Assembly: GCF_018881855.1 (NCBI RefSeq)
Contig: NZ_JACVPN010000005.1
Coordinates: forward strand, 186,001-250,000
Origin: Polynucleobacter sp. MWH-Berg-3C6
GTDB lineage: Bacteria; Pseudomonadota; Gammaproteobacteria; Burkholderiales; Burkholderiaceae
Reading direction: 5' to 3'
DNA: 64,000 nt
Shown here: positions 14,594 through 58,873 of the stretch, one piece after another
Position numbering within the stretch: the first letter of the stretch is position 1
Layout of the letters: each line of letters opens with the position of its first letter
Notes under the pieces: generated by a model
Database searches by the model: none
The model's input: only the letters and a program-made list of their open reading frames with translations
Told to the model about the DNA's origin: nothing
Translations under genes and position numbers: made by a program

Positions 14594-15121
14594 TTAGTTC
14601 ACACCAACAAACTCGAGCGGATTGAACCATGTGCCATGTGGCAGCGGAACTTGGAACCAGAACTCGAACATGAGGTAGAGGGCAACGCTTACCCCAACAG
14701 ATACTGCAATTGCTTTCCAAATTGGATATTTTCCTAGCCACACCATAAAGATTGCGATGTAGAGGGCTGAAGAAACGTAAATACCAATCAATTGAACGCC
14801 CAAGACAAAAACGATTGCCGGTAAAAGCACGGCCATAATTTGCTTTAGAGGCTCGCTATCGACAAATGACTCTGTTTTCTTTTTCTTATTAACGATTGCA
14901 GCCTGGTAAAGAGTGACTGTGCTTGAAAGCAAAATAATCAAACTGATATAGAAAGGGAAATATCCCGCCTCAGGACCATCAGCACCCCAACTGGCACCTA
15001 ACTTTAGGCTGCCAACCATCACAGTGATGCCAATCGCAAGGAAAACGATCGCAGTGATGATATCCATTGCTCTGACGCTGATCGCAGAATCTTGATTTGA
15101 ATTATTTGTATGTTCAGACAT
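14594..15121 (-). CDS. tctB: Tripartite tricarboxylate transporter, small membrane subunit
   Basis: A 175-residue protein with four predicted membrane helices, as expected for TctB. The first is near 20-38 and the second near 55-75 after DGPEAGYFPFYISL, a conserved family stretch. A Lys-rich cytoplasmic loop follows (NKKKKTE). It partners TctA in the membrane. It lies between tctC and tctA on the minus strand and is preceded by a terminator-like hairpin that may reduce its expression relative to tctC. Confidence 0.9.
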   Translation of the reverse strand: MSEHTNNSNQDSAISVRAMDIITAIVFLAIGITVMVGSLKLGASWGADGPEAGYFPFYISLIILLSSTVTLYQAAIVNKKKKTESFVDSEPLKQIMAVLLPAIVFVLGVQLIGIYVSSALYIAIFMVWLGKYPIWKAIAVSVGVSVALYLMFEFWFQVPLPHGTWFNPLEFVGVN

Positions 15122-15160
15122 TTGCTTTGTTTATCAATAAAGTTAATTAATACACTACTT

Positions 15161-15190
15161 AAAAAATAGGACCCCCTAGTGGAGGTCCTA
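15161..15190 (-). terminator. Terminator-like attenuator hairpin between tctC and tctB
   Basis: On the minus strand the arms taggacctcc and gggggtccta pair over 10 positions with one mismatch and a 4-base loop, followed by TTTTTT (15161-15166). It lies inside the operon, 17 bp after the tctC stop. Partial termination here would give much more binding protein than permease. Confidence 0.75.
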
Positions 15191-15206
15191 TCAGATTTCC
15201 TACAAA

Positions 15207-16211
15207 TTACTTGGCCAAGAAGCCAGCTTCGGTCATCAATTGCTTATGCAAAGCTTCATTCAATGTGAGCCAGTTTCTAAACTCTTTGCCGGTCATGAAG
15301 GTCTGATTAAATGCACCATCAGCCATGAACTTCTTCCACTCTGGCGTAGCGCGCACTTTCTTGAATACATCAACATAGTAATCAACCTGCTCTTGAGTTA
15401 CGCCTGGAGCCATAAAAATACCGCGCAACATGACATAGTCAGTTGGCACGCCTGCTTCTTTACAGGTTGGTACGTCATACCAAGACTGGGTATCAGTAAC
15501 CTTCTCTTTGTATGGCATACGTGTGTCATCAAATACGCACAATGCACGTAATTTATTTGCACGCCATTGAGCGACCGCTTCAATTGGGTTGTTTACAGAA
15601 GAATCAATGTGGTTACCTACGAGCTGAACAGCAACGTCGCCACCCCCTTTGAATGGGATGTAAGTGAACTTAGCACCAGTGGCTTTTTCAATTGCCACAG
15701 TAATGATTTGGTCTTCAGACTTAGAGCCTGTACCGCCCATTTTGAATTTACCTGGACCTGCTGCTTTAGCGGCATCGATATATTCCTTGGCAGTTTTGTA
15801 TGGCTTGTCAGCGTTATCCCACAAAACGAATTGGTCAAGCGCCAACATGGCTACCGGAGTAATGTCTTGCCAGTTAAAGGGGACGCCTGTTGCTAATGGA
15901 GTAGTAAACAAGTTTGAAAGCGTGATCACAATCTTATTTGGATCGCCTTTAGCTTCTTTCATTGCCAAGAAACCTTCAGCTCCAGCACCGGCTCCCTTGT
16001 TCACAGGGATCACTGCTTGCTTCATTAAATTGTTTTTGGTAATGATGCCTTGGATCATGCGCGCCATTTGGTCAGCGCCACCACCAGGACCAGCAGGAAT
16101 GATGAACTCAACAGGCTTAGTTGGTTCCCATGCAGCAAATGCAGGTGAAACGCCAGCGACACCGAGGGCTAGAGCGGTGGAAATCAATGCCCCTTTTAAC
16201 TTCATCTTCAT
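15207..16211 (-). CDS. tctC: Tripartite tricarboxylate transporter solute-binding protein (Bug family)
   Basis: Periplasmic receptor for the TctAB permease. I start at the ATG at 16211 (334 residues) because ggagga at 16221-16226 is an ideal ribosome binding site 8-9 bases upstream; the longer frame from TTG at 16226 would translate through that site. A signal peptide (about 1-26, ending AFA) is followed by PVEFIIPAGPGGGADQMARM, the typical Bug ligand-loop region, and GTGSKSEDQ further on. Polynucleobacter-type genomes usually hold several Bug proteins; this one is linked to its own permease. The substrate is unknown. Confidence 0.93.
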   Translation of the reverse strand: MKMKLKGALISTALALGVAGVSPAFAAWEPTKPVEFIIPAGPGGGADQMARMIQGIITKNNLMKQAVIPVNKGAGAGAEGFLAMKEAKGDPNKIVITLSNLFTTPLATGVPFNWQDITPVAMLALDQFVLWDNADKPYKTAKEYIDAAKAAGPGKFKMGGTGSKSEDQIITVAIEKATGAKFTYIPFKGGGDVAVQLVGNHIDSSVNNPIEAVAQWRANKLRALCVFDDTRMPYKEKVTDTQSWYDVPTCKEAGVPTDYVMLRGIFMAPGVTQEQVDYYVDVFKKVRATPEWKKFMADGAFNQTFMTGKEFRNWLTLNEALHKQLMTEAGFLAK

Positions 16212-16226
16212 GAACATCTCCTCCAA

Positions 16227-16525
16227 TAAATATGGTTTACCAATTGAATTTGGTTTATGTAATATGGATGTGATTTTTAATCAAAATGTCACAGTTAAAG
16301 TTGACTGACATCAATTATTTCAAAATCGTTACACGCAAGCTTACACAAGCTAGTAGAAACCCTGATACATTAAGCCAAAGACAGCCTTGAGTGTACTTAC
16401 ATCTTCTTTGAGAAACTGCATTTAATGCACAATAAATGCACATAATGAATATGGTTATTAGCTTGGAATGATGCAAAAGAGAGCTAGCTTAAAAAGTTAA
16501 GTATTTACCCTAGTGAATGAGGGGC
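16227..16525. promoter_or_regulatory. Upstream region of tctC with TGCATT/AATGCA half-sites
   Basis: About 300 bp without a gene, between tctC and the tRNA. It contains the perfect palindrome tgcatttaatgca (16417-16429) and a third half-site aatgca at 16435-16440, followed by AT-rich sequence. This resembles an operator cluster for tctC, but I cannot name the regulator. I see no other gene or RNA in it. Confidence 0.4.
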
Positions 16526-16601
16526 TGGTGCCGCTTGCCGGAATCGAACTGGCGACCTTTTCATTACGAATGAACTGCTCTACCAACTGAGCTAAAGCGG
16601 C
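16526..16601 (-). tRNA. tRNA-Thr (anticodon CGU)
   Basis: A 76-nt cloverleaf on the minus strand beginning GCCGCTTTAGCTCAGTTGG and ending GCGGCACCA with an encoded CCA. The 7-bp acceptor stem is perfect. The anticodon loop TTCGTAA gives CGU for the ACG threonine codon, and the T-loop is TTCGATT. The 27-43 G-A mismatch is, as I recall, also present in the E. coli counterpart. It lies 15 bp after the DUF1854 gene on the same strand. No integrase or att-like duplication is seen. Confidence 0.95.
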
Positions 16602-16616
16602 AAATCCGCTTTGATT

Positions 16617-17084
16617 CTAGCGGAAGCGATCTAGCAGCTTTTTGCTGACTTTATCCAACTGCGTGGAATCTTTGATCAAAAACTGCAGGCCATTGGAATC
16701 AGCAATCAGCAAAGTATTGCCTGCAATTCTGCGAATGTCTTCTTCACCCTTCAGGCGAATACGCGTTGGGCCACGATCCGTTTCTATATCCCAAATGCTT
16801 GGCGTCGCAAATGTAGACACCTTCGTAATTCTTTCAATGACCGGCATAAATTCGCGGGCCGCTAACTCTTCTTCAATCAGATTGAGCTCTGCCGATGGAA
16901 TCAGCGCAACATCTGGATACCAGCATACCTCTTTGCCTGACTGATTCATGATGCCAATACCAGAACTAGGGGCAGTAATTGGGAACGCACGAACTGGATA
17001 AACACCAATGTGCCGCTCGCCCTTTGCATCGATCAAAACTAAGCGGCCAAGTGAATCTCGTTCTAACTGATGGGTCTTATTCAT
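16617..17084 (-). CDS. Cyanophycin-locus DUF1854 family protein
   Basis: A 155-residue cytoplasmic-looking protein without signal or membrane segment. The sequence (LDRFR end, IWDIETDRGPTRIRLKGEED centre) matches the DUF1854 family, known for co-occurring with cyanophycin synthetases and a dedicated ABC protein. Its ATG overlaps the stop of the ABC transporter gene as ATGA (17081-17084), so the two are translationally coupled and probably work together. The biochemical function is unknown. Confidence 0.85.
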   Translation of the reverse strand: MNKTHQLERDSLGRLVLIDAKGERHIGVYPVRAFPITAPSSGIGIMNQSGKEVCWYPDVALIPSAELNLIEEELAAREFMPVIERITKVSTFATPSIWDIETDRGPTRIRLKGEEDIRRIAGNTLLIADSNGLQFLIKDSTQLDKVSKKLLDRFR

Positions 17085-19426
17085 ACACCACCCCCAATGT
17101 TCTTTGCAATCACTTCTAATTTTTCTTCTTGCTTCTCATCTTGGTACTCCTCAAGACTCTCGCCAATGGCGCCACCCTCAACCAACTCGGCCGCATGACG
17201 CAGTTGTGCCTGATACAAGGTGTAGTAAGCACCTTGAGCATCCATTAATTGTTCATGTGAACCAATCTCCACAATCTCGCCCTTATCGAGGACTACCAGG
17301 CGATCAGCTTTTCTAAGAGTCGATAAACGGTGAGCAATCGCAATCGTTGTGCGACCTTTCACCAAGTTATCTAAAGCGCGCTGAATCTCTTTTTCAGTAG
17401 TAGTGTCGACTGATGATGTTGCCTCATCCAAAATCAAAATACTTGGATTAATGAGGAGCGCACGTGCGATTGAGATACGCTGACGCTCGCCGCCCGATAA
17501 AGATTGTCCGCGCTCACCCACAAGAGAATCGTAACCAAGCGGAAGTCTCAGAATGAATTCATGGGCGTGAGCTGCACGAGCCGCCTCAATGATTTCTTCC
17601 CGAGTAGCATCAGGTTTTCCATAGGCAATATTTTCTGCAATCGTGCCAAAGAATAAGAATGGCTCCTGCAGCACTAAGCCAATACATTTACGGTAGTCAG
17701 CAATTCGAATGCTACGAATATCACGCCCATCCAATGCTACTGAACCAGCACTCACATCATAAAAACGGCAAATGAGATTTACTAGCGTGCTCTTACCTGA
17801 ACCGCTATGCCCTACTAAGCCGATCATTTCACCGGGAGCGATATCTAAATCAATGCCTTTGGATACTGCACGGTTGCCGTAGCGGAAACCCACACCCCGC
17901 AATGAAATGCGGCCCTGAACTGGCCCCAATGGTGCCGGGTTAATAGGCTCAGGAACGCTGGACACATGATCCAAAATATCAAAGATACGTTTAGCCCCTG
18001 CTGCGGCTTTTTGCGTATGAGAAACAATTCGACTCATCGAATCTAAGCGAATATAAAAACGTCCGATATAGGCCAAGAAAGCAATCAATACACCAACGGT
18101 TACTTTTTGGTGAGCAACTTGCCAAATACCAAAGCCCCATACAACCAACAATCCAGTTTCGGTAAGCAGGGTTACGGTTGGAGAAAACAAGCCCCAAACA
18201 CGATTCACGCGATCGTTAATTTGTAAATTGTGCTTATTTGAATCAACAAAGCGCTTTAGTTCACGATCTTCTTGAGCAAACGCTTTCACCACCCGAATTC
18301 CCGGAATGGTATCGGCCAAGATATTGGTCACTTCAGACCATATGCGATCAATCTTTTCAAAACCAAAGCGCAAGCGATCGCGCACCACATGAATCATCCA
18401 CACAATAAATGGCAAAGGCGCTAGGGTTACCAAGGCAAGTAAGGGATCAATCGATACCAAGATTGCCGCAGTCATGGTGATCATGAGTACATCAGTCGCA
18501 AAATCTAAGGCGTATAAGGATAAGAAAACGCAGATGCGATCAGTCTCTGCGCCAATACGTGCAATCAAGTCCCCCGTGCGTTTGCCGCCGAAATACTCTA
18601 AAGACAGTTTGAGCAGGTGTTCAAAAGTAGTGTTACGTAAATCAGCGCCAATGCGCTCGCTTACCAACGCCAGCAAGTAAGTCTTCCACCAACCAAGACC
18701 CCAAGCAACAATGGCTGCAGCAAATAAAGCAAGCAAATACATGCTCGCCAAATGAAAATCAATTGAGTTGCCACGCTCATACGGAATCAAAACATGATCC
18801 ATCAATGGCATCGTGAGATAAGGTGGAATCAGTGTTGCCCCGGTGGACAATAAGGTGAGCACAAAACCCAATGCAAGTTGTTTTTTATATGGCTTTGCAA
18901 AACGCCATAACTTAAAAAGCGTCCATGTAGAGGGTGGTGCATCATCCTCTGGATCGCACGTTGGACAGGAATCAGAATTGGCTGGCTTTGGACTTAAGCA
19001 AACTGGGCAAACTTGTTTATCGTACTCACTGGATTCTGGATTACTTTGCTCTTCACCTTTAGTGAGTTGTTTAAAACTCGATTGAAGACGCAATACTTGT
19101 GGATTGACTGCCAGAGTGAAATACCAAGTACGGAGCAAACTATCCGGAGTTTCGAGCCTTAAATGCCCTACTCCTGCATGGTCACCATGGGTTAAATGCC
19201 CTCCCTGGCCAATGGACCAAGACTCAAATTGCTTGCCATCGGTCCAATACAGACCGTCTTCATTGAGGAAAAGCAGGCTTTTCTCGAAGCGCAGCTCTGC
19301 ATCTAAATCCAACTCTACCCATGCCAGCAGAGCGTCTGGACTAGGGACTGGGGATTTTTCGCCCTGCAAAATAGGTTGCCAATAGCTTGGCAAAGCGGGG
19401 GCAAAAGGTAGGATTTCTGGCTTCAT
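17081..19426 (-). CDS. Cyanophycin-associated ABC exporter with N-terminal zinc-ribbon
   Basis: A 781-residue half-transporter fused to an unusual N-terminal region. Residues 1-135 form a soluble domain. Cys140, Cys143, Cys154 and Cys157 (CPVC and CPTC) make a zinc-ribbon-like knuckle. A six-helix exporter domain spans about 180-480. The nucleotide-binding domain has Walker A GHSGSGKST (about 537-545), signature LSGGERQRIS and Walker B ILILDEATSS. It is coupled to the DUF1854 gene and divergent from the cyanophycin synthetases, a conserved association in cyanophycin-making proteobacteria. The substrate is unknown; export or sensing of Asp/Arg-derived material is speculation. General family resemblance is to MsbA-type exporters. 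Confidence 0.9.
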   Translation of the reverse strand: MKPEILPFAPALPSYWQPILQGEKSPVPSPDALLAWVELDLDAELRFEKSLLFLNEDGLYWTDGKQFESWSIGQGGHLTHGDHAGVGHLRLETPDSLLRTWYFTLAVNPQVLRLQSSFKQLTKGEEQSNPESSEYDKQVCPVCLSPKPANSDSCPTCDPEDDAPPSTWTLFKLWRFAKPYKKQLALGFVLTLLSTGATLIPPYLTMPLMDHVLIPYERGNSIDFHLASMYLLALFAAAIVAWGLGWWKTYLLALVSERIGADLRNTTFEHLLKLSLEYFGGKRTGDLIARIGAETDRICVFLSLYALDFATDVLMITMTAAILVSIDPLLALVTLAPLPFIVWMIHVVRDRLRFGFEKIDRIWSEVTNILADTIPGIRVVKAFAQEDRELKRFVDSNKHNLQINDRVNRVWGLFSPTVTLLTETGLLVVWGFGIWQVAHQKVTVGVLIAFLAYIGRFYIRLDSMSRIVSHTQKAAAGAKRIFDILDHVSSVPEPINPAPLGPVQGRISLRGVGFRYGNRAVSKGIDLDIAPGEMIGLVGHSGSGKSTLVNLICRFYDVSAGSVALDGRDIRSIRIADYRKCIGLVLQEPFLFFGTIAENIAYGKPDATREEIIEAARAAHAHEFILRLPLGYDSLVGERGQSLSGGERQRISIARALLINPSILILDEATSSVDTTTEKEIQRALDNLVKGRTTIAIAHRLSTLRKADRLVVLDKGEIVEIGSHEQLMDAQGAYYTLYQAQLRHAAELVEGGAIGESLEEYQDEKQEEKLEVIAKNIGGGV

Positions 19427-19629
19427 CGACTCTAAAAGTATAGTGGAGCTAGATTTTTTAGATTTATAGCTACTGTCAACTTTAGCGCCCTAAAAACGTT
19501 AAATTAGATAAGTAGGCCTTTTTGTGTATTTTTGCTAATTTTGTGAGCTTTAAATAAAAACTAGAAATAGAGAGACTGTCTGACGCGCCATAGCCAAACC
19601 ATGGCCCCGCCACTCGCAACACCCCAAAC

Positions 19630-21822
19630 ATGCCCCAATTACTCGACAAATCCATTGAGATCCTGAGCGTTAAGCATCTCCGTGGCCCCAATATGTGGAC
19701 CTACCACCCTGTTATTGAGGTTTGGCTGGATATTGGCGATTTAGAGGACTACCCCTCTAACCTCATCCCTGGTTTTTATGAGCGTCTTGTTAAGGCCCTC
19801 CCTAGTCTTGTTGAGCACCGTTGCAGCTACGGAGAAACCGGTGGCTTCTTAAAGCGCGTTGAAGAAGGCACTTGGCCAGCACATATCCTGGAACACCTCA
19901 CACTCGAGCTACAAAATCTAGCTGGTATTCCGGGTGGCTTTGGTAAAGCACGTGATGGTGATCGACGCGGCGTATACAAAGTGATGGTCAGCGCCATTAA
20001 TGAAGAAGTCACATTAACCGCTCTCAAATATGCACGTGATTTGTACTTAGCATTAGCGCAAGACAACAAAGATTGTGTTGCGCTTGTCAGTGACATTATC
20101 GAAAAACTGCGTGACATTGGTGACGATCTTTTACTTGGACCAAGTACAGCTTGTATTGTGAATGCTGCTGAAGAACGCGGCATTCCCTCAATTCGCTTAT
20201 CTGAAGGTAACTTGGTGCAATTGGGTTACGGCGCTAAACAACGCCGTATCTGGACTGCAGAGACTGATCAAACTAGCGCGATTGCTGAAACTATTTCTAG
20301 AGATAAAGATTTAACGAAGAGTTTATTGCGCAGCGCTGGTGTACCCACTCCTGAAGGTAGAACCGTTACCAGCCCGGATGATGCCTGGGAAGCCGCTCAA
20401 GACATTGGCTTACCTGTCGTAGTGAAACCCATTGATGGTAATCACGGTCGCGGCGTATTCATTAACCTCTATACCCAACAAGAGATTGAAGCTGCTTATG
20501 CAGTTGCAATTGATGAAGGCAGTGAAGTACTCGTTGAACGGCACGTTGTTGGCGATGAACATCGCCTGCTTGTCGTTGGCAACAAAGTGGTTGCTGCAGC
20601 AAAAGGTGAAACTGTTTGGGTTACTGGTGATGGCAAGCACACTGTTCGTGAACTCATTCAAATACAAATTAATTCCGATCCACGTCGCGGAACTACAGAA
20701 GAGCATCCACTGAATCCTGTACGTATTGATTCGGCAGTAGAGCTAGAGCTGGCAAGACAGCAGCTCACTGGCGATAGCATTCCTGGTATTGATCACAAGG
20801 TGCTGATTCAGAGCAATGGCAACGTTGCTTTTGATGTTACTGATCTGATTCATCCGGATGTGGCGCACCAAGTCGCCCTAGCTGCACGCGTAGTTGGATT
20901 GGAGATTGCTGGTGTTGATCTGGTTGCGCAAGATATTGGCCGTCCATTGGCAGAACAAAATGCTGCCATTGTGGAAGTCAATGCTGGTCCTGGCCTACTC
21001 ATGCATTTAAAGCCAGCCAGCGGTAAACCTCAACCCGTAGGTAAAGAAATTGCCAATCACCTCTTCCCTCCGGGTTCGGACTTCCGTATCCCAGTGGTAG
21101 GTATTTGTGGTGAAAATGGCAAAACACCGGTTGCAGAAATGGTTGCGCACTTTTTACGCCTGACAAATGTCTATGTTGGCCTTTCATGCAGTAAAGGTTT
21201 GTTCTTCGGTAATCGCGCAATCCCAAATACCAATGCCTCCAACTGGGAAAATGCACGCCGCACCTTACTCAATCGTGCCGTAGAAGCTGTCGTCATTGAA
21301 AACAATCATCTCTCAATGCTGATTGAGGGCTTGGCTTACGATCGCTGCCAGGTTGGGGTCGTGCTTAACGTCAATCCAAAAGCCAACTTCCCGCAATACG
21401 CAATTTACGATGAAGACCAAGTTTTTAGTATTGTGCGGACTCAGATTGATGTTGTCTTACCAACTGGTATTGGCGTTCTCAACGCTGATGATCCAATGTG
21501 CGTTCAGATGGCAGAACTCTGCGATGGTCAAGTCATCTTCTTTAGTGAAGATCCAAATTCTGAAGTAATTAAAAACCATTTAGAAAACGGTGGGCGTGTA
21601 GTGCTGGTTGGCAAACAACAAATCACCCTTAAGTCTGGCAAATTAGATCAAAAATCGATTCCAGTACCACGCCACTCAGAATCAGATGCTTCGGCTCCAT
21701 GGAAGGGCATGAACCTCGGCGCAGCGATTGCTGCTGCCTGGGCACTAGATATACCATTTAACGTGATTGAAGCTGGCGCAGAAACATTCGTGCCAGACCT
21801 TACTACTGCAACAGGGGCTTAA
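19630..21822 (+). CDS. Cyanophycin synthetase-like protein (CphA-prime) with degenerate ligase P-loop
   Basis: A 730-residue paralogue of cyanophycin synthetase, shorter than the 856-residue gene next to it. The N-terminal domain and ATP-grasp domain look intact (VVVKPIDGNHGRGVFINL, EVNAGPGLLMHLKPASGKP). The Mur-ligase-like half is altered: at about 490-500 it reads CGENGKTPVA where active enzymes have TGTNGKTTT, the ARGGMLREGL block is replaced by IENNHLSMLIEGL, and the C-terminal domain is short. It probably retains one amino-acid ligase activity, or none on its own. It abuts cphA with no gap. Two-synthetase loci are known in betaproteobacteria, but the division of labour is not settled. 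Confidence 0.85.
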   Translation: MPQLLDKSIEILSVKHLRGPNMWTYHPVIEVWLDIGDLEDYPSNLIPGFYERLVKALPSLVEHRCSYGETGGFLKRVEEGTWPAHILEHLTLELQNLAGIPGGFGKARDGDRRGVYKVMVSAINEEVTLTALKYARDLYLALAQDNKDCVALVSDIIEKLRDIGDDLLLGPSTACIVNAAEERGIPSIRLSEGNLVQLGYGAKQRRIWTAETDQTSAIAETISRDKDLTKSLLRSAGVPTPEGRTVTSPDDAWEAAQDIGLPVVVKPIDGNHGRGVFINLYTQQEIEAAYAVAIDEGSEVLVERHVVGDEHRLLVVGNKVVAAAKGETVWVTGDGKHTVRELIQIQINSDPRRGTTEEHPLNPVRIDSAVELELARQQLTGDSIPGIDHKVLIQSNGNVAFDVTDLIHPDVAHQVALAARVVGLEIAGVDLVAQDIGRPLAEQNAAIVEVNAGPGLLMHLKPASGKPQPVGKEIANHLFPPGSDFRIPVVGICGENGKTPVAEMVAHFLRLTNVYVGLSCSKGLFFGNRAIPNTNASNWENARRTLLNRAVEAVVIENNHLSMLIEGLAYDRCQVGVVLNVNPKANFPQYAIYDEDQVFSIVRTQIDVVLPTGIGVLNADDPMCVQMAELCDGQVIFFSEDPNSEVIKNHLENGGRVVLVGKQQITLKSGKLDQKSIPVPRHSESDASAPWKGMNLGAAIAAAWALDIPFNVIEAGAETFVPDLTTATGA

Positions 21823-24393
21823 TTGGAAATCACCCGTATTCGTATGCTGCGCGGCCCCAATTTATGGAGCCGTCACACTGCGCTAGAAGCCATTGTTTCT
21901 TGCGACGCATCTGAGCGCTCAATCGACTCTATTCCCCAATTTGAAAACAAGATTCGTGAACGCTTTCCGCAGCTAGGTAGCATGCGTCGTGGTGGTCACA
22001 ATGAAGTCCTCTCACTTGCCCATGCCTTAGAACACGCTGCACTTGGCTTACAAGCGCAGGCAGGTTGCCCTGTTACTTTTAGTCGCACAGTTCAAACGAT
22101 CGACGTTGGTGTTTATCAAGTAGTCGTGGAATATACCGAAGAGGTCGTTGGTCGCATGGCCTTTGACTTTGCATTTGCTCTCATTCAGGCGACATTGAAT
22201 GATGCGCCGTTTGATCTTGCTGCTGCGCTCTCTGAACTTGAGGCTTTGTATGAAGATGTTCGCCTAGGCCCCAGCACTGGATCTATTGTGGATGCAGCTG
22301 TCCAGCGCAACATCCCCTATCGCCGCATGACTGAAGGCAGCATGGTTCAGTTTGGTTGGGGTAGCAAACAAAAACGTATTCAAGCGGCTGAGACCAGCGA
22401 CACCAGTGCAATTGCTGAGGCTATTGCACAAGATAAAGAGCTCACTAAGAACTTACTTGCAGCTGCAGGTGTATCAGTACCGATTGGCGAAGTCGTCACG
22501 ACCGCTGATGATGCTTGGCGTGCCGCGCAAAAAATTGGCGGCCCAATTGTTCTCAAGCCCAAAGATGGCAATCAAGGTAAGGGTGTTGTTGCCAATATTC
22601 AAACGGAAGAAGATATTCGTGCTGGATTTATAGTGACCCAAGGTTTTGGTCGTGAAACTATTGTTGAGCGCTACCTACCTGGTGCCGACTATCGTCTTCT
22701 AGTCGTTGGTAATCGCCTCTCAGCAGCCGCTCGTCGCGAACCCGCTCAAGTTGTTGGTGATGGTACGCATACCGTTACCCAATTAGTTGAAATGGAAAAT
22801 AAGAATCCATTGCGCGGTGATGGTCATGCAACTGCCCTGACGAAAATACGCTTTGACGATATTGCTTTAGCCCATCTAGCCAGCAATGGACTCACCCCTC
22901 AACACGTTCCTAAAACTGGTGAACGCGTATTACTCCGTAATAACGCTAATTTAAGTACTGGTGGCACCGCTACCGATGTCACTGATGATGTCCATCCTGA
23001 TGTTGCTGCAAGTGCAGTAGCTGCCGCACAAATGATTGGGCTGGATATTGCTGGCGTTGATATTTTGTGTGAGTCTATCTATAAGCCATTAGAGCAGCAA
23101 GGGGGCGGCATCGTTGAAGTCAATGCTGCACCTGGCTTGCGTATGCACCTTAAGCCCTCCTATGGCAAAGGCCGCCCTGTTGGTGAAGACATCATTAATA
23201 TGATGTTCCCCCCTGGAGATGATGGTCGCATTCCAGTTGTTGCAGTCACTGGAACCAACGGCAAAACAACTACCGTACGTTTAATTGCACATCTATTAGA
23301 TGAGACCGGTCTTCGTGTTGGAATGACTACAACTGATGGCGTTTATATTAATCATCGCTTGATTGACTCTGGTGATTGTAGTGGGCCTAAGAGCGCTCGT
23401 AATGTATTAATGCATCCTGACGTAGATGCCGCAGTACTGGAAACAGCCCGCGGTGGCATGCTACGCGAAGGACTTGGTTTTGATCGTTGTGAAGTGGCTG
23501 TAGTTACCAATATTGGTGAAGGTGACCACCTCGGCCTGAACTACATCACTAGCGTCGAAGATTTAGCAATTCTCAAACGCGTCATCGTACAAAACGTTGC
23601 CCCAACTGGCGCCGCTGTTCTGAATGCCGCAGACCCTATCGTAGTGAAAATGGGCGATAAATGTTCCGGTCGGGTCATTTTCTTTGCCCAGAATCAGCAC
23701 CATCCAGTCATTGCTGCGCATCGTGCCAAGAATAAGAAGGTAATTTACTTTGATGGCACCTACATTGTTGCCTCAAAGGGCTCAAGAATTATTTATCGCT
23801 TCCCTGTCAGTGAAATCCCAATCACCCAAAATGGGGTACTCGGTTTCCAGGTAGAAAATGCGATGGCCGCAATCGGTGCTGCCTGGGCTCTCGGATTAGA
23901 TGCTGAGAAAATTGCTCGCGCCCTCTACAGTTTCGAGAGTGATGCAAACTCAGTTCCAGGTCGTTTCAATCAGTTCCAGCACAACGGTGCAACCGTGATT
24001 GCTGACTATGGTCATAATCCAGATGCAATGCGCGCTCTAGCGAGTGCCATTCAGGCGATGAAGCCCAAGAAAAGTCACGTTGTGATTAGCGGTGCTGGCG
24101 ATCGACGTGATGAAGATATTCGTGACCTAACCCGTATTTTGGGTAATTCATTTGATAACGTGATCTTGTATCAAGATGCTTGCCAACGTGGGCGCGAAGA
24201 TGGCGAAGTACTGAAGCTTTTACAAGAAGGTTTGGTAGGTGCAACTAAAGCCAAGCAAGTGAAAGAAATTCATGGAGAATTTAAGGCGATTGATACTGCT
24301 TTAGAGGATATCTCTGCTGGAGATATCTGCCTCATTCTGATTGATCAAGTAGAAGAGTCGCTCGCCTACCTCAAAGCAAAAGTAAAGCCCTAA
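21823..24393 (+). CDS. cphA: Cyanophycin synthetase
   Basis: Makes multi-L-arginyl-poly-L-aspartate, a nitrogen/carbon storage polymer, without ribosomes. The 856-residue protein has an N-terminal domain, an ATP-grasp domain (about 200-440; IVLKPKDGNQGKGVVANI, EVNAAPGLRMHLKP) and a Mur-ligase-like domain with P-loop TGTNGKTTTVRL (about 475-486), LETARGGMLREGLGFDRC and NPDAMRAL. The start is TTG directly after the preceding stop (taattg), with aggggc as ribosome binding site; the next ATG is codon 8. It is co-transcribed with the CphA-prime gene. No cyanophycinase is visible in this window. Confidence 0.96.
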   Translation: MEITRIRMLRGPNLWSRHTALEAIVSCDASERSIDSIPQFENKIRERFPQLGSMRRGGHNEVLSLAHALEHAALGLQAQAGCPVTFSRTVQTIDVGVYQVVVEYTEEVVGRMAFDFAFALIQATLNDAPFDLAAALSELEALYEDVRLGPSTGSIVDAAVQRNIPYRRMTEGSMVQFGWGSKQKRIQAAETSDTSAIAEAIAQDKELTKNLLAAAGVSVPIGEVVTTADDAWRAAQKIGGPIVLKPKDGNQGKGVVANIQTEEDIRAGFIVTQGFGRETIVERYLPGADYRLLVVGNRLSAAARREPAQVVGDGTHTVTQLVEMENKNPLRGDGHATALTKIRFDDIALAHLASNGLTPQHVPKTGERVLLRNNANLSTGGTATDVTDDVHPDVAASAVAAAQMIGLDIAGVDILCESIYKPLEQQGGGIVEVNAAPGLRMHLKPSYGKGRPVGEDIINMMFPPGDDGRIPVVAVTGTNGKTTTVRLIAHLLDETGLRVGMTTTDGVYINHRLIDSGDCSGPKSARNVLMHPDVDAAVLETARGGMLREGLGFDRCEVAVVTNIGEGDHLGLNYITSVEDLAILKRVIVQNVAPTGAAVLNAADPIVVKMGDKCSGRVIFFAQNQHHPVIAAHRAKNKKVIYFDGTYIVASKGSRIIYRFPVSEIPITQNGVLGFQVENAMAAIGAAWALGLDAEKIARALYSFESDANSVPGRFNQFQHNGATVIADYGHNPDAMRALASAIQAMKPKKSHVVISGAGDRRDEDIRDLTRILGNSFDNVILYQDACQRGREDGEVLKLLQEGLVGATKAKQVKEIHGEFKAIDTALEDISAGDICLILIDQVEESLAYLKAKVKP

Positions 24394-47268: not shown

Positions 47269-48108
47269 TTAGCTGTTTTGGGTAAAAATCACCCGCTCAG
47301 GGGCATTGTAGATCTCAAAGTGTTTTCCGGAGCAGCGGGACAGGATGGTGAGATTGGTTTTACGGGCCAGCTCTAACCCCATCAGGGTGACTCCTGAGCG
47401 GGTCAGCAGAAAGGGAACGCCCATCTGAGCCCCCTTAATCACCATCTCCGAAGTTAAGCGGCCAGTAGTAAAAAAGATCAAATCTTTGCCGGGCTTATTG
47501 GCTAGCCACATCAAACCAGAAATTGAGTCGACTGCATTGTGGCGACCAACATCCTCGATGAAGTGGAGGAGTCGAACTCCATCATTGCCCTCTCTCTCAA
47601 ATACCGCGCAGGCATGAACAGAGCCGGACTTTTTATAGATTGAATCGTGAACCCGGATCGCGTCAATCAAGGCAACAATTGCCTCTTGGGATAACTTGGG
47701 TCCATCTGGCAAACGAATCTCAGACATTTCTTCCATAAGGCCACCAAACATGGTGCCCTGGCCGCAACCGGTAGTGACCACCCTCTTGCTGGTCAGGGCC
47801 TCAATATCAACAGTGCTCCGGCGAGTCTTGACTGCTGCAGAGTCGGTCTCCCAGTCAACCTGAATACTTTCAATATCGTCCGGCGACTCAACCAAACGCT
47901 GATTACGTAAATACCCAAGCACCAAGGCCTCAGGAGCACTTCCTAGGGTCATTAAAGTAACGACCTCACGCTTGTCCAAGTAGATGGTCAATGAGCGCTC
48001 ACCAGGGATATGGCTCAGCTTTTTCCTGCCCGCCTCATCCAATATCTCCACCTCATGCACCAATGGCACGGAGGCACTAGACATCTGAATATTGGGTTTT
48101 ACGGCCAT
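47269..48108 (-). CDS. fdhD: Formate dehydrogenase accessory sulfurtransferase FdhD (CxxG variant)
   Basis: Transfers sulfur to the molybdenum cofactor of formate dehydrogenase; it is needed for activity. The 279-residue protein has the N-terminal IYLDKREVVTLMTLGSAPE, the catalytic loop VVTTGCGQGTMF with Cys115, and the C-terminal GVPFLLTRSGVTLMGLELA. E. coli FdhD has a CxxC motif in this loop; here the second Cys is Gly118. Formate is the end product of the oxalate locus in this window, but no formate dehydrogenase gene is present, so its client lies elsewhere. Divergent from metG. Confidence 0.92.
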   Translation of the reverse strand: MAVKPNIQMSSASVPLVHEVEILDEAGRKKLSHIPGERSLTIYLDKREVVTLMTLGSAPEALVLGYLRNQRLVESPDDIESIQVDWETDSAAVKTRRSTVDIEALTSKRVVTTGCGQGTMFGGLMEEMSEIRLPDGPKLSQEAIVALIDAIRVHDSIYKKSGSVHACAVFEREGNDGVRLLHFIEDVGRHNAVDSISGLMWLANKPGKDLIFFTTGRLTSEMVIKGAQMGVPFLLTRSGVTLMGLELARKTNLTILSRCSGKHFEIYNAPERVIFTQNS

Positions 48109-52192: not shown

Positions 52193-53125
52193 CTACAGCG
52201 TAAAGAACTGGCCTACTTGTAGACTCAGTTCTTTAGCCAACTCGGCACCAGAGACTTTGCCTGCAGCACCTTTAGCCTTGAGGACCTCAATCTGCCCACC
52301 ATGGCAGGCGATGAAGAATGAATCTAAAGTGATCTGAGTTACTTCACCCGGCTTGCCTTTGACAGCTCCAAAAGTCGCAACCACATGCTTATGACAATCA
52401 TAGATCTGTACTTTTTGTTCACCGAACTTGGTCCATGCACCAGGGGCTGGATTACAAGCGCGGATGAGGTTGTAGATTTGGGTGATATGTGTCGCCCAAT
52501 GAATCTGTGCAGCATTTGCATCAAACCAACCTTCATAGTTTGCTAGCGATTCATCTTGAACAACCTCTTGATGCTTGCCAGCAACCACTAAGTCAGCAGC
52601 CTCTAGTAATGCTTTTACACCAATTGGGAAAAGATGATCAAAGTAGATTTTTCCTAATGTGTCATCAGGTCCGATAGCGACCTCTTTTTGCAAAATCACT
52701 TCGCCTTCATCCAAACCATCAGATGGACGGAAGATCGTTAAACCTGTTTTCTCTTCGCCTAAAGCAATCGCCCAATTAATGGCGCTAGGGCCGCGATATT
52801 TTGGCAAGAGTGATGGGTGATACTGGATCGTGCCGTGCTTTGGTATTTTGCAAAGCTCTTGAGGCACAAACTGCAATACATAAGCCATGACACAGATATC
52901 AGCACCGCTATCAATCATGGCTTGAGCGGCGTCAGGGCCCTTCAGAGAGGAGAACTGCAAAGGAGTTAAGCCCTTTGCAAGCGCTGCCTCTTTAAGGACT
53001 TCTGGCTTAGTTGATTTGGGATTGTCTGGCGGACAAAAAACCGCTACGACCTCATCGCCACGCTCTAAAAAAGCTTCTAATGCAGCCTTGCCAAAATCAG
53101 CACTCCCAATCAACGCAACCCGCAT
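52193..53125 (-). CDS. Formyltransferase/10-formyl-THF hydrolase-like protein in oxalate locus
   Basis: A 310-residue protein with an N-terminal formyltransferase domain and a C-terminal Fmt-C-like domain. It is not an ordinary methionyl-tRNA formyltransferase. The active-site stretch reads QYHPSLLPKYRGPSAINWAI, where Fmt has an Asn-x-His, and this and DGLDEGEVILQKE resemble the hydrolase domain of 10-formyltetrahydrofolate dehydrogenase (ALDH1L1). The expected His and Asp are present. It begins 1 bp after the second frc gene, so it is surely co-transcribed. Inferred role: moving or releasing formyl groups downstream of formyl-CoA. The substrate is untested. Confidence 0.8.
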   Translation of the reverse strand: MRVALIGSADFGKAALEAFLERGDEVVAVFCPPDNPKSTKPEVLKEAALAKGLTPLQFSSLKGPDAAQAMIDSGADICVMAYVLQFVPQELCKIPKHGTIQYHPSLLPKYRGPSAINWAIALGEEKTGLTIFRPSDGLDEGEVILQKEVAIGPDDTLGKIYFDHLFPIGVKALLEAADLVVAGKHQEVVQDESLANYEGWFDANAAQIHWATHITQIYNLIRACNPAPGAWTKFGEQKVQIYDCHKHVVATFGAVKGKPGEVTQITLDSFFIACHGGQIEVLKAKGAAGKVSGAELAKELSLQVGQFFTL

Positions 53126-53126: not shown

Positions 53127-54374
53127 TTAGATAACCTTATCGTGACGGAGAGAAATCAACTCATCAGTGGAATAACCTAACTCACTGAGAATCTCATCGG
53201 TATGTTCGCCAAGCAATGGTGATCGTGTCACTTCAGTTGGGCTATCCGACATCTTGATTGGGTTTCCAACAGTCAGGTACTTGCCACGAATTGGGTGGTC
53301 TACCTCAACCACTGTACCTGTAGCGCGCAGCGCAGGCTCCTCAGCGATTTCTTTCATGGATAAAATTGGGCCACATGGAACGTCATACTTATTCAAGATG
53401 TCCATTACTTCGAACTTACTCTTGGTCATTGTCCATTTCTCAATTTCACCGAAGATCTCCATGAGGTGCGGCAAGCGCGCCATTGGAGATGCGAAACGCA
53501 CATCAGTAATCCAATCTTCATGGCCGATCACTTTGCAAATCGCCTCCCACACTGGGGCTTGAACTACTACATATATGTAGGCATTTGGATCGGTTTCCCA
53601 GCCTTTGCATTTCACAATCCAACCAGGCTGACCACCACCAGAGGCATTACCAGCTCGTGGTACAGACTCACCGAACTCACCGTTCGGAAACTGAGGGTAC
53701 TCTTGCATGATGCCATTGCGCTCTAAGCGTTGTTGATCGCGTAACTTCACGCGGCATAAGTTCAATACAGCATCTTGCATTGCTGCCAAGACCTTTTGAC
53801 CGCGGCCAGAGTGAGTACGCTGATAAAGAGCTGTAACGATACCTAATGCCAAATGTAAACCAGTACCGCTGTCACCGATTTGTGCGCCAGTAACCATGGG
53901 AGGACCATCATCAAAACCAGTGGTAGATGCGGAACCACCAGCACATTGGGCAACGTTCTCATACACTTTGCAATCTTCGTATGGGCCAGGACCAAAGCCC
54001 TTCACAGATGCCATGATCATCATGGGATTGAGCTCTTGAATCCGCTCCCAAGAAAAGCCCATACGATCCAATGCGCCTGGTGCGAAGTTCTCAACCAATA
54101 CGTCACACTCTTTAATGAGGCGCTCTAGAATTTCTTTACCCTTTTGAGTCTTGGTATTGACAGTGATGGAACGCTTGTTGTGATTCAGCATAGTGAAATA
54201 CAAGCTATCGGCATCTGGAATGTCGCGCAGTTGACCGCGGGTTGCATCCCCTTCGCCAGATTTTTCTACCTTAATAACGTCTGCACCAAACCAAGCAAGT
54301 AACTGTGTACAGGTTGGTCCCGATTGAACGTGCGTAAAGTCGAGGATTTTGACCCCTTCTAGTGCTTTTGCCAT
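53127..54374 (-). CDS. frc: Formyl-CoA:oxalate CoA-transferase, second paralogue
   Basis: Class III CoA-transferase of 415 residues, paralogous to the gene at 55004. It has [14 protein letters not shown] with Gln17, the catalytic Asp in [14 protein letters not shown] (about 168-170), and a glycine loop reading [10 protein letters not shown], in which the first Gly of the GGGGQ loop is Ser. Position 48 is Gln (TRGQLRD), not the Trp of the Oxalobacter enzyme. It sits directly before the formyltransferase-like gene. The preferred acceptor acid could differ from oxalate; the family makes similar-looking enzymes for succinate, mesaconate and others. Confidence 0.88.
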
Positions 54375-54503: not shown

Positions 54504-54932
54504 CTAAGAATGGGAGTTTTCAAGTTCTAGGATGCGCTTTTTCAAGGCCCTTTCTTCGGCAAAACGCTCTGTTTCATCCCTAATTACGGCAACAATCCCG
54601 CTCACCTTTTGATGCTCATCAAACAGCATCCCGACCGTAAAAGCGATTGAGAGCATGCTGCCATTCTGATGAAGCGCCGGCACTTTTAATAGCGATGTGC
54701 CGTAACGCGTGATCCCGGTTTCCATTGACTTACGGCAGCCCTCATTGTGTCTATGACGTTGGCGCTCTGGAACAATCAAATCCAAGGTGTTACCTAAAGC
54801 ATCTGCTTCTGAATACCCAAAGATACGAGTAGCTGCGGGATTCCACATCACAATTTTTTCATGTGCATCGACAACAATGATCGCATCACCCACGCACTCT
54901 ACCAATTGGCTTAAGTCAATATTCTTATTCAT
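54504..54932 (-). CDS. Stand-alone PAS domain protein
   Basis: A 142-residue soluble protein that is essentially one PAS fold: VGDAIIVVDAHEKIVMWNPAATRIFGY, DLIVPERQRHRHNEG, and FTVGMLFDEHQKVSGIVAVIRDETERF, ending in a short coiled helix. There is no kinase, cyclase or DNA-binding domain. The block WNPAATRIFGYSEAD with the RHRHNEG helix resembles small PAS proteins found beside oxalate genes. It lies between the two frc paralogues, just after the terminator of the oxc-frc unit. It probably senses redox, haem or a small ligand for a partner encoded elsewhere. Confidence 0.88.
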   Translation of the reverse strand: MNKNIDLSQLVECVGDAIIVVDAHEKIVMWNPAATRIFGYSEADALGNTLDLIVPERQRHRHNEGCRKSMETGITRYGTSLLKVPALHQNGSMLSIAFTVGMLFDEHQKVSGIVAVIRDETERFAEERALKKRILELENSHS

Positions 54933-54949: not shown

Positions 54950-54976
54950 AAAAAAGGCGCTCACAAGGAGCGCCTT
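54950..54976 (-). terminator. Terminator after the oxc-frc unit
   Basis: On the minus strand aaggcgctc and gagcgcctt (9 bp, 5-base loop) are followed by TTTTT. It lies 28 bp after the first frc stop and only about 18 bp before the PAS start, so the PAS-frc-formyltransferase genes depend on read-through or on a promoter embedded here. Confidence 0.85.
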
Positions 54977-55003: not shown

Positions 55004-56254
55004 TTAAACTGCTTTAGCTGTATGCAGCTTAGCGATGTCATCAGCGCTATAGCCAAGGTCAGCCAACACTTCATCAGTATGCTCACCCAATACTGGTGAT
55101 GGACCAACTTCGATTTCCAAATCAGAGAACTTGATTGGGCTACCGATAGTCAAATACTTACCGCGTACTTTGTGATCCACTTCAACGATTGAACCGCTCT
55201 TACGCAGGTCAGGTGAAGCAGCCAATTCTTTCATTGAGAGAACTGGAGCACATGGAATATCGAACTTGCGGAGGATATCCACAGCTTCGTACTTAGTCTT
55301 GTCTTTGAGCCAATCTTCAATGGTTGCGAAGATGTCAAAAATCTTGTCTTGACGAGCTTCAGCAGTCATATAGGCTGGATCTGTTGCCCACTCTGGTTTA
55401 CCCAAAGCTTTAGTAATTGGCTCCCAAGCATGGCCTTGAATAGTGAAGTAGATATATGCGTTTGGATCTGTTTCCCAACCCTTACACTTCAACACCCAAC
55501 CTGGCTGACCACCGCCACCAGCGTTACCACCACGTGGAACTACGTCAGTGAATGAACCATGTGGGTACTGTGGATACTCTTCCAAGTAACCAACTTTGTC
55601 CAAACGTTGTTGATCGCGCAACTTGACGCGGCACAAGTTCAATACAGCATCTTGCATTGAGCAAGAAACTTTTTGACCTTTGCCAGTTTTTTGACGCTGC
55701 ATCAATGCTGTCAAGATGCCGATTGCCAAGTGCATACCAGTATTAGAGTCACCCAAAGCAGCAGCAGAAACAGTAGGAGGACCGTCCCAGAAACCTGTTG
55801 TAGAGGCGGCACCACCAGCACACTGAGCAACGTTCTCATACACTTTTAAGTCTTCGTATGAGTGGCCATCGCTAAAGCCTTTTACAGAAGCCATGATCAT
55901 TTTTGGGTTCAATTCTTGAATACGCTTCCAAGAGAAGCCCATACGATCTAACGCGCCTGGACCAAAGTTCTCAACCATCACATCAGAGGTTTTGATCATC
56001 TTCTCTAAAACTTCTTTACCTTCTTGAGTCTTAGTATCGAGAGTCAAAGAACGCTTGTTACCGTTGAGCATAGTGAAGTACAAAGCATCCGCACCTGGAA
56101 TATCGCGCAATTGGCTACGAGTTACGTCGCCAGAACCTGGACGCTCTACTTTGATAACGTCAGCGCCGTACCATGCCAACAACTGAGTACATGCAGGACC
56201 TGCTTGTACGTGTGTGAAGTCAATAATGCGAATACCGTCTAATGGTTTAGTCAT
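55004..56254 (-). CDS. frc: Formyl-CoA:oxalate CoA-transferase
   Basis: Transfers CoA from formyl-CoA to oxalate, releasing formate and oxalyl-CoA for the decarboxylase. The 416-residue protein closely follows the characterised Oxalobacter enzyme: [20 protein letters not shown] with Gln17, catalytic Asp169 in [12 protein letters not shown], and the intact tetraglycine loop [10 protein letters not shown]. Residue 48 is Gln where Oxalobacter FRC has Trp. The stop is followed by a terminator, and the start lies 80 bp after oxc, so the two form one transcription unit. Confidence 0.93.
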
Positions 56255-56334: not shown

Positions 56335-58044
56335 TTATTTCTTAGCTCCTGCTGTAGATGGGTTCAAGTTCGTCAAACGTCCACTCTCAGTACCTGCAGT
56401 TTCATCAATAACCGCATTGATCAGAGCTGGTTTACCGGCAGCGATTGCTTCGGTTAACGCTGCTTCCAATTCTGCTGGGGTCGTTACGTAGTAACCAACA
56501 CCTCCAAACGCTTCAATCATCTTGTCGTAGCGCGCATCCTTAACGAAAACCGTCGGAGCAACATCAGCGCCGCCAGTTGGATTGACATCAGTACCACGGT
56601 ATACGCCATTGTTGTTAAACACAACGGTTGTAATTGGCAGGTTGTAACGGCAAACGGTTTCGAGCTCCATACCGCTAAAGCCAAATGCGCTATCGCCTTC
56701 TACTGCAACTGTTGGCAAGCCACTCGTTACAGCAGCGCCAATGGCATAACCCATGCCAATACCCATAATTCCCCAAGTACCTGAGTCAAAGCGCTTACGT
56801 GGCTTGTACATATCCACGATCGCACGGCAGTAATCCAAGGTGTTTGCACCTTCGTTTACCAAATTGACATCTGGGTTCTTCTTAATCACATCACGAATCA
56901 CACGCAATGCGCCATGGAAGTTCATTGGGTTGGCTTCTTTTGCCAACGTCTCAGCCATCTTGGCAGTGTTCTTATCTTTCTTCTCAGTGATTGCAGCAAT
57001 CCACTCAGCGCTTGGCTTAGGAACTGCAGAAATACCTTTTAAGAGTTCGCTAACGCATGAACCAATATCACCAATTAATGGGGCAGCAATTTGTACGTTG
57101 CTATCCACTTCGTTTGCTTGAATATCGATCTGAATAAATTTCTTAGGATCTTTACCCCAAGTCTTACCCTTACCGTGAGCTAGCAACCAGTTCAAACGTG
57201 CACCAACCAACATCACCGCATCAGCTTCAGCCAATACAAATGAGCGTGCTGCAGAAGCGGATTGTGGATGGTTATCAGGTAATAAACCTTTAGCCATCGA
57301 CATTGGCAAGTAAGGGATGCCAGATTTTTCGATCAAATCACGAATCTCTTTATCAGCTTGTGCATAAGCAGCACCTTTGCCCAAGAGAATCAATGGACGC
57401 TTAGCACCCTTCAATACATCTAAAGCACGTGCCACTGCATCAGCAGCAGGAATTTGACGTGGAACTGGATCGATTACTTTGAAAATCGATTTCTTGGCTT
57501 CATCAGCAGGCATTGTTTGAGCAAGCAACTGTGCTGGCAAGTCTAAGTACACGCCGCCTGGACGACCAGACACTGCTGCACGAATTGCACGAGCAAAACC
57601 AATGCCGATATCTTCAATGTGATTAATACGATATGCAGCTTTGCAATATGGCTTAGCAGCATTGAGCTGATCCATCTCTTCGTAGTCACCCTGCTGCAAG
57701 TCAACGATCTCACGCTCGCTTGAACCAGAAATCAAAATCATTGGGAAACAGTTCACAGTTGCATTTGCCAGAGCTGTTAAACCATTCAAGAAACCTGGGG
57801 CAGAAACAGTCATGCAAATACCAGGCTTTTGTGTCATGTAACCAGCAATCGCTGCAGCGTTACCAGCATGCTGCTCATGACGGAAACCGATAAAGCGCAA
57901 GCCTTCAGCTTGAGCCAAACGACAGAGGTCGGTAATTGGAATACCAACTAAGCCAAAAATTGTATCGAGGTCATTTGCTTTTAAAGCGTCAATGACGAGA
58001 TGGAAGCCATCAGTTAGTTGTGTGTTTTGGTTATCTGTAGTCAT
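56335..58044 (-). CDS. oxc: Oxalyl-CoA decarboxylase
   Basis: Thiamine-diphosphate enzyme that decarboxylates oxalyl-CoA to formyl-CoA and CO2. I start at the ATG at 58044 (569 residues) because the N-terminus [20 protein letters not shown] then aligns with the Oxalobacter enzyme of similar size; a GTG at 58089 would add unrelated residues. Other blocks are [17 protein letters not shown] with the catalytic Glu, [20 protein letters not shown], and the ThDP/Mg motif [15 protein letters not shown] through FNNNGVYRG. It heads the oxc-frc unit, downstream of an Fnr-type palindrome. Confidence 0.96.
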
Positions 58045-58196
58045 AGATTTTTTTATGAATTGCAAGTCATCACTAAGTGATAGTTCCACGCAATTTAGCT
58101 TTCGCTAGTGTCTCCAATGAAGTTATTAATCGCACTACGGGTATTAGTCCCCGCTTAGGCAGAAATGAATATTAGGCTCGGGGTGAGGGTTCATCA

Positions 58197-58255: not shown

Positions 58256-58873
58256 TTAGATAAATAGCTCTTTATGCTTCGTTTTAAGGCGGCTCAAGGT
58301 CTCGGGGGAGAGGTTGAGATAGGCAGCCAACTCCTTTTTAGGGAGCAGCTCAAATAAGTCCTCGTATTTACGCAGAAAACGCTCTACCCGGCCTGGGGCA
58401 TCGAGCATATGCAAGGTAATGGTGTGAGCCATGATCTCGCTCATCAGGCGCATCACTTCGAACTCAAAGCTCTCTTTAAGGGACCTATGCTGATCCAAGA
58501 ATTCTGCCCACTTCTTGAGGGGCATCCGAGCCACTCGAGCCTTGGTTACAGAGGCAATACTGTAGGGTGCAGCGGTCTTGAGACGCCAAGCAGCATAACT
58601 GGTTTCAATATCTTTTTCGATAGCAAAACGCAGAATCATCTCTTTGGCATCGGCACTAGAAACAATGCGCTTCAAAATGCCATCTAAAACAAAGTATTGT
58701 TCCATCTGATGATCGCCCTGATGGAGCAAAATCTCTGATTTTTTGAGATCGGAAATCTCTAAATGCCGCTCTAATTCAGCCATCGCATCCTGATTCAAGC
58801 TTTTTAAGACAGAGTTTTGACTTAACTGGAGACGAATCAGGTTTTTTTCGGGGTGCTTATCTAATGCTGTCAT
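58256..58873 (-). CDS. Crp/Fnr-family transcriptional regulator of the oxalate locus
   Basis: A 205-residue regulator. It has an N-terminal cyclic-nucleotide-binding-type beta barrel (about 20-120), a dimerisation helix (about 120-150) and a C-terminal winged HTH with LPKKELAAYLNLSPETLSRLKTK. The recognition helix has ETLSR, as in FNR (E-T-I-S-R). There is no N-terminal Cys cluster, so it is not an oxygen-sensing Fe-S protein; the effector is unknown and might be oxalyl- or formyl-CoA related. It is upstream of oxc on the same strand and divergent from the cobalamin riboswitch. Confidence 0.9.
   Translation of the reverse strand: MTALDKHPEKNLIRLQLSQNSVLKSLNQDAMAELERHLEISDLKKSEILLHQGDHQMEQYFVLDGILKRIVSSADAKEMILRFAIEKDIETSYAAWRLKTAAPYSIASVTKARVARMPLKKWAEFLDQHRSLKESFEFEVMRLMSEIMAHTITLHMLDAPGRVERFLRKYEDLFELLPKKELAAYLNLSPETLSRLKTKHKELFI

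Follow-up and report, generated by a model that had tools for sequence, protein, structure and literature searches.

Formate enters the folate pool through Fhs, an ATP-dependent enzyme. The N domain of 10-formyl-THF dehydrogenase (FDH, ALDH1L1) hands the formyl group of 10-formyl-THF to the 4'-phosphopantetheine arm of a carrier domain, and the same domain in isolation hydrolyses 10-formyl-THF in vitro (PMC8748788, accessible part). For the N domain of HypX (HoxX) a formyl transfer to CoA was proposed (PMC6802093, accessible part), and this domain is said to have been shown to form formyl-CoA from 10-formyl-THF and CoA in the accessible part of a review (PMC12134894). Oxalate catabolism by oxalyl-CoA decarboxylase (Oxc) and formyl-CoA transferase (Frc) ends at formate in the surveys, as far as their accessible text goes (PMC10192776, PMC12927642), and in the latter, a 2026 genome survey of oxalate pathways, the words "formyltransferase" and "folate" are absent from the main text. 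Among the open-licence literature matches listed, none describes formyl-CoA:THF transfer in oxalate metabolism or a function for the protein family treated here; this agrees with the earlier note on this DNA, which knew of no description of such a link.

The gene in question, here called FT, lies in a window of 64,000 nucleotides (the window being the whole stretch of DNA that was analysed) from a Polynucleobacter genome of 1.99 Mb. Its cluster reads, in the order of transcription on the minus strand, CRP-type regulator, oxc, frc2, hairpin, PAS gene, frc1 and FT:

58256 to 58873, minus strand: CRP/FNR-type regulator, with a relative present in 30 of 41 FT neighbourhoods
56335 to 58089, minus strand: oxc, oxalyl-CoA decarboxylase (TIGR03254, 990.2 bits)
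55004 to 56254, minus strand: frc2, second formyl-CoA transferase (TIGR03253, 725.8 bits)
54954 to 54976, minus strand: hairpin with T run, terminator-like, in the frc2-PAS intergenic space, from a scan that found 10 sites against 7.2 expected from shuffles
54504 to 54932, minus strand: PAS-domain protein within the cluster, single domain, 142 aa
53127 to 54374, minus strand: frc1, formyl-CoA transferase (TIGR03253, 732.6 bits), 1 bp upstream of FT
52193 to 53125, minus strand: FT, predicted stand-alone formyl transfer protein resembling the FDH N domain, 310 aa, ORF with ATG start
52790 to 52825, minus strand: QYHPSLLPKYRG block of FT, residues 101-112, with Gln101 in the place of the transferase Asn, the predicted catalytic His103 and the SLLP turn
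52682 to 52720, minus strand: DGLDEGEVILQKE block of FT, residues 136-148, with the predicted catalytic Asp139
52532 to 52537, minus strand: Tyr197-Glu198 of FT (FDH Tyr200-Glu201), invariant in 45 of 45 FT proteins and below pLDDT 50 in the model

We propose, at a probability that we put slightly under one half, that FT is a formyl-CoA:tetrahydrofolate formyltransferase that would feed oxalate carbon to the folate pool; what the analysis shows is its family, residues, operon and co-occurrence, while its substrates, direction and physiology we infer.

The earlier note had placed the gene in an oxalate cluster, and this stands, with Frc and Oxc above the TIGR03253 and TIGR03254 cut-offs and the coupling kept well beyond the genus. 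Its wording "fused in operon with frc" is right for a tight gene pair, the frc1 stop codon (53127-53129) and the FT ATG (53123-53125) being 1 bp apart on a shared strand, and wrong if taken to mean a fused protein. The arrangement could be followed in 80 Polynucleobacter-type loci, with proteins 76-95% identical to FT, which belong to Polynucleobacter or to MAGs filed as betaproteobacteria, Burkholderiaceae and, once, Ferrovum. Wherever at least 1400 bp of upstream DNA was available, frc was directly upstream of FT, with 0-1 bp from stop to start, in 74 of 75 loci. The sole exception (L085, 8001-8921, 76% identical) is the MAG filed as Ferrovum, with neither oxc nor frc in its 13 kb. Two differing frc copies per cluster (here 53127-54374 and 55004-56254) are kept in 56 of 57 testable loci of this type, and these copies may use different CoA donors. 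The lone-PAS protein of 142 aa (54504-54932) follows the hairpin (54976-54954), with a PAS match in 48 of the 57 loci. Elsewhere in the window, at 17081-24393, a cyanophycin synthetase (21823-24393) lies near a cyanophycin-associated ABC transporter (17081-19426).

FT matches both formyltransferase domains of Pfam (Formyl_trans_N, 100.9 bits, E 9e-29; Formyl_trans_C, 58.2 bits) and is therefore no chance ORF. The genome has five Formyl_trans_N genes. Besides FT these are PurN, Fmt, PurU and a PRK06988 formyltransferase, all four scoring over their respective cut-offs, so that the genome's own Fmt, PurN and PurU already provide for initiation of translation, synthesis of purines and hydrolysis of 10-formyl-THF. 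FT is under every NCBIfam cut-off matched (fmt, TIGR00460, 154.1 vs 201.5; PRK06988, 142 vs 316; ArnA, 133 vs 777); five further members score 132-170 on TIGR00460, and the genome's own Fmt 250.9. PurU shares the catalytic domain superfamily and a possible hydrolysis of 10-formyl-THF with FT, but it is a separate gene in this genome, and FT reaches only 23.1 bits on the PurU model PRK06027 (cut-off 223). The best PDB relatives of the window protein are FDH hydrolase domains (1s3i, 2bw0, 4qpd), at 173 bits vs 128 for the best Fmt, and a distant member from Paracoccaceae gives 185 bits for FDH and 123 for the best Fmt.

The earlier note had assigned the protein to FDH and not to Fmt, and the phylogeny, run with Fmt, ArnA, PurU and FDH rows, bears this out. 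In a 44-row tree, FT, FDH and HypX share one branch (99/99) with Fmt and ArnA apart, and FT forms a single clade (88/73) with FDH outside it; the HypX branch amounts to 6.74 changes per column and its position is for that reason not trusted. A reduced tree, with HypX, PurU, PurN, the Ensifer protein L183 and a haloarchaeal protein taken out as long or distant rows, unites FT and FDH (100/99), again apart from Fmt and ArnA, and places FDH weakly (84/56) inside FT, beside six FT rows from other orders (L086, L154, L155, L170-L172). A topology holding FT and Fmt together without FDH and ArnA was rejected on this reduced tree (p-AU 0.0016), the test having been chosen after the first tree and long branches meeting in the tree used. 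FDH is represented in these trees by two rows, rat and zebrafish, both vertebrate. On the most far-reaching reading, the first domain of vertebrate FDH may come from FT-like enzymes.

The residues were compared in 45 FT proteins, 11 rows of Fmt or ArnA type (9 of them Fmt) and 2 FDH rows. H103, S105-P108, D139, Y197 and E198 (FDH His106, Ser108-Pro111, Asp142, Tyr200 and Glu201) are invariant across the 45 FT proteins. Two residues before the catalytic His, FT has Gln (42/45) or Cys (3/45) and never Asn (0/45), whereas Asn is found in all 11 Fmt and ArnA-type rows (9/9 for Fmt) and Ile104 in both FDH rows. This Asn is crucial in transferases, and changing Ile104 to Asn cuts the hydrolase activity of FDH to less than 10%, according to the accessible part of PMC4388273, which also names, in the same part, the folate-contact side chains of zebrafish FDH. 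About half of these are kept in FT: Phe89 as F86 (44/45), and Phe135, Leu141, Asp142 and Tyr200 as F132, L138, D139 and Y197 (45/45). Others are altered: Met80 stands for Leu83, Gln or Cys for Ile104, Pro134 for Ala137 and Glu140 for Thr143 (the last in 42/45), and at the positions of Met92 and Ile95 the FT proteins differ from one another. The Fmt rows have Ile or Leu at the Phe89 place, Met at the Phe135 place, and YA where FT has Tyr-Glu (Y197-E198). Among the aligned rows, P104, S114, Y161 and E198 are common to FT and FDH alone, positions including M80, A81, V83, P134 and F162 are conserved only in FT, and Pro226 is Fmt-like.

Fmt thus resembles FT in its two-domain layout, SLLP motif and His plus Asp, and differs in having Asn-x-His for the Gln/Cys-x-His of FT, in its cut-off and in its branch; tree, Asn motif and cut-off together rule out that FT is an Fmt paralogue. 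We consider it very improbable that FT formylates another amine or thiol, or acts as a spare Fmt. The retained Formyl_trans_C domain, the Fmt-like Pro226 and the label fmt_2 given to FT in the record of the Paracoccaceae plasmid La 6 would suit such a role, which is opposed by the tree, by the lack of Asn in all 45 proteins and by the presence of a proper Fmt above the cut-off that FT itself does not reach.

The AlphaFold model of FT, built from 30 close rows (pLDDT 77.8, pTM 0.62, with residues 196-209 and 222-230 below 50), confirms the predicted fold, which by itself does not separate transferase from hydrolase function or locate a CoA site. With VIA-align, the N domain of the model finds FDH 4qpd first (Z 28.4, rmsd 1.8 A over 196), followed by Fmt 1fmt (Z 27.0); in Foldseek, chains of ArnA and Fmt come out ahead of FDH by a narrow margin.

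The likeness to FDH (nearest branch of the tree, 173-185 bits, the His, Ser and Asp, and some folate contacts) raises the question of whether FT is a plain 10-formyl-THF hydrolase, tuning folate pools under a high flow of formate or formyl-CoA. This is the main rival chemistry, and we regard it as quite unlikely. It would fit the fact that, among solved structures, FDH hydrolase domains come closest in sequence, that the isolated FDH domain has this activity (PMC8748788, accessible part), and that the transferase Asn is replaced in FT and FDH alike. Such a hydrolase, however, would duplicate the PurU that is above cut-off in the genome, would make a futile cycle when next to Fhs, and would leave the tie to two kinds of formyl-CoA-making enzymes (see below) unexplained; FDH moreover has Ile104 where FT has Gln or Cys. 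Unlike FDH, FT is a bacterial stand-alone protein in formyl-CoA gene clusters, with neither carrier nor aldehyde dehydrogenase domain (310 aa, Formyl_trans_N and Formyl_trans_C only). The earlier description of FT as hydrolase-like is thus correct as to kinship with the FDH hydrolase domain; "hydrolase" is probably the wrong name, because N domains of FDH and HypX type load a phosphopantetheine thiol and formyl-CoA is the partner that is conserved in this case.

To determine the distribution of FT, the window protein was searched against 399 genomes of its order, Burkholderiales: 79 genomes, from 30 of 158 genera, matched at E <= 1e-50, and no match was weaker than 7e-91. At class level, 8 of 274 genomes passed 1e-40; three of them reached 3e-85 or better, and the other five lay between 5e-44 and 9e-41. 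These five weaker matches carry Asn-x-His and fall with Fmt in the tree, which leaves a clear gap between FT and other matches. With the Paracoccaceae FT as query, 10 of 398 phylum-level genomes passed 1e-50. Oxc (E <= 1e-150) was present in 75 of the 399 genomes of the order: 66 genomes have both proteins, 13 have FT without Oxc, 9 have Oxc without FT and 311 have neither (Fisher p 8e-52, a value that ignores relatedness). Oxalate breakdown does not need FT, since 9 of the 75 Oxc-bearing genomes lack it, and the idea that FT strictly accompanies oxalate genes was discarded in view of the 13 of 79 FT genomes without Oxc.

Forty-one FT neighbourhoods were compared, from 40 genomes and the La 6 plasmid. 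Frc is encoded on the same strand within 300 bp upstream of FT in 35 of the 41 and somewhere in the stretch in 37, Oxc or an Oxc-like TPP enzyme in 35 (4 on the opposite strand, 2 downstream), and one or both of these partners in 39. The exceptions are L165, where Oxc lies 165 kb from FT, and L172, where fhs adjoins FT; L165, L172 and L085 have neither frc nor oxc within the stretch examined around FT. As separate observations, the oxc ORFs of two genomes of the window's genus (G665 and G304) have 1 and 3 internal TAA codons, which may come from the match running upstream of the start. In L158, the genes before oxc encode Fhs, a TerC protein, an MFS carrier and a PanE-like protein, and those downstream of FT (10875-18245) are CHASE2-kinase-, PP2C-, FHA-, CHASE2-cyclase- and phosphodiesterase-like; some other loci have ORFs of comparable size after FT. 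PanE-like proteins can be oxalyl-CoA reductases, as Schneider et al. reportedly found in 2012.

In 10 of the 41 neighbourhoods the place of Oxc beside FT-frc is taken by a TPP enzyme that shares no more than 25-28% identity with Oxc (L145, L146, L134, L141, L142, L151, L152, L154, L155 and L164). The solved structure nearest to the L145 enzyme is a 2-hydroxyacyl-CoA lyase (282.7 bits vs 165.6 for the Oxc structure 2c31). That these enzymes are canonical Oxc can be dismissed, the two scanned scoring 242 and 266 vs the PRK09259 cut-off of 557; the same two score 350 and 380 vs the NCBIfam lyase cut-off of 600, and their top model is acetolactate synthase, also below its cut-off. From sequence, the TPP enzyme beside FT is likely to be a 2-hydroxyacyl-CoA lyase. 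A relative of the L145-type enzyme (57-100% identical) occurs in 11 of the 13 FT genomes without Oxc, in all 11 on the contig of FT with a gap of 1.2-1.7 kb; in the other two (G374 and G561) neither Oxc nor the lyase-like enzyme was matched. Some other genomes have the enzyme as well: 3 of the 7 further FT genomes included, 1 of the 9 with Oxc but no FT, and 1 of a sample of 31 without an FT match, of which 11 are not named in the Oxc output. Hydroxyacyl-CoA lyases release formyl-CoA, according to the accessible text of the literature matches listed. Since Oxc and lyase-type enzymes both yield formyl-CoA, what FT clusters share is formyl-CoA and not oxalate, and the FT family is not special to oxalate, some clusters having exchanged Oxc for a hydroxyacyl-CoA-lyase-like enzyme.

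These neighbours would also suit FT if it were formyl-CoA hydrolase (EC 3.1.2.10), which is listed without a gene in the accessible part of a 2023 survey (PMC10192776). We find this distinctly improbable. The replaced transferase Asn and the several altered FDH folate-contact positions are compatible with it; the retention of Phe89, Phe135, Leu141, Asp142 and Tyr200, which a pure thioesterase would not need, speaks against it, and Frc already releases formate with the CoA bond saved.

The reaction formyl-CoA + THF <-> 10-formyl-THF + CoA seems to us the best fit, because an FDH-like protein with neither carrier nor dehydrogenase adjoins enzymes that make formyl-CoA. In the proposed mechanism, Frc would put CoA on oxalate, Oxc would decarboxylate oxalyl-CoA to formyl-CoA, and FT would transfer the formyl from the thiol of CoA onto THF at N10, so that 10-formyl-THF and free CoA arise with no ATP spent. 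The transfer would be carried out by His103 and Asp139 (FDH His106 and Asp142), with Gln101 standing where amine formyltransferases need Asn. In the window's genus, where Fhs was not matched, this would open a direct route for oxalate carbon to purines, serine and methionine. The points against our proposal include the altered FDH folate contacts, the 9 of 75 Oxc genomes without FT, the FT genes of L165, L172 and L085 with no frc or oxc nearby, the hydrolysis of 10-formyl-THF by the isolated FDH domain, and the formate-to-folate route that Fhs already offers in 66 of 79 FT genomes.

By analogy, the proposed reaction is that of the HypX N domain read backwards. HypX, which shares about 20% identity with FT by structure alignment and groups with FDH and FT on a very long branch, differs in being fused to a decarbonylase domain, in its hydrogenase context and in lacking the Ser (PMC6802093, accessible part). 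FT has no enoyl-CoA-hydratase-like C domain, and its context is oxalate, not hydrogenase. The precedent for the reaction is thus HypX.

The direction of transfer can be discussed in the light of Fhs, which would make the same product, 10-formyl-THF, but is unrelated and ATP-dependent. A search with PF01268 and controls covered 79 of 84 FT genomes (five were left out) and found Fhs in 66; the 13 without a match comprise all 7 of the window's genus, the window genome included, and 6 others. Fhs is on the FT contig, at most 15 kb away, in 35 of the 66 Fhs-bearing genomes (in G321 as a fragment at a contig end). The gene order on the La 6 plasmid is oxc-frc-FT-fhs, fhs adjoins FT in L154, L155 and L172, and an FT-fhs pair is also found in L086; such pairs would suit either direction of transfer. 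As to other genes examined, a serine-cycle malate thiokinase beside FT was considered and rejected, the sucCD-like genes of L086 and L166 being above the succinate-CoA ligase and below the malate-CoA ligase cut-offs. The window genome has a formate dehydrogenase alpha subunit above cut-off (723.7 bits), so formate can leave without folate; separately, an FdhD-like protein at 47269-48108 of the window is below both NCBIfam FdhD cut-offs (126.6 of 269; 124.7 of 140.9).

FT might, then, run in the opposite net direction, making formyl-CoA from 10-formyl-THF and CoA and so priming or refilling the Frc/Oxc cycle; with an adjacent Fhs, the two enzymes together would amount to a formyl-CoA synthetase driven by ATP. 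We judge this unlikely. In its favour are the direction reported for HypX, the CoA donor that Frc requires to start, the La 6 order and the fhs genes beside FT in L154, L155 and L172. Against it, there is no Fhs match in 13 of 79 FT genomes, including 7 of 7 from the window's genus, and FT is absent from 9 of 75 Oxc genomes. As the thioester holds more energy, this direction would be uphill; for the same reason net flow should run towards folate, unless FT serves to prime Frc/Oxc. Transfer towards folate, which we prefer, has its own cost: draining formyl-CoA from the Frc/Oxc cycle costs a CoA donor, and another donor is therefore needed, which, as a guess, the two frc genes might supply.

FT is an overlooked enzyme inside the oxalate cluster of many bacteria. 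If it has the proposed activity, direct transfer from formyl-CoA to folate would save the ATP of Fhs and give bacteria without Fhs a route for oxalate carbon. Metabolic engineers would gain an enzyme for exchange between one-carbon pathways based on formyl-CoA and those based on folate. Under the rival reading of FT as a formyl-CoA hydrolase, it would be the gene candidate for that activity. The fmt_2 annotation of one record (La 6) is corrected. Slightly more tentatively than for FT itself, we suggest that FT is the first of a family of stand-alone formyl-CoA:THF formyltransferases that is widespread in bacteria, which would form an ATP-free one-carbon bridge between CoA and folate for both oxalate decarboxylation and hydroxyacyl-CoA lysis.
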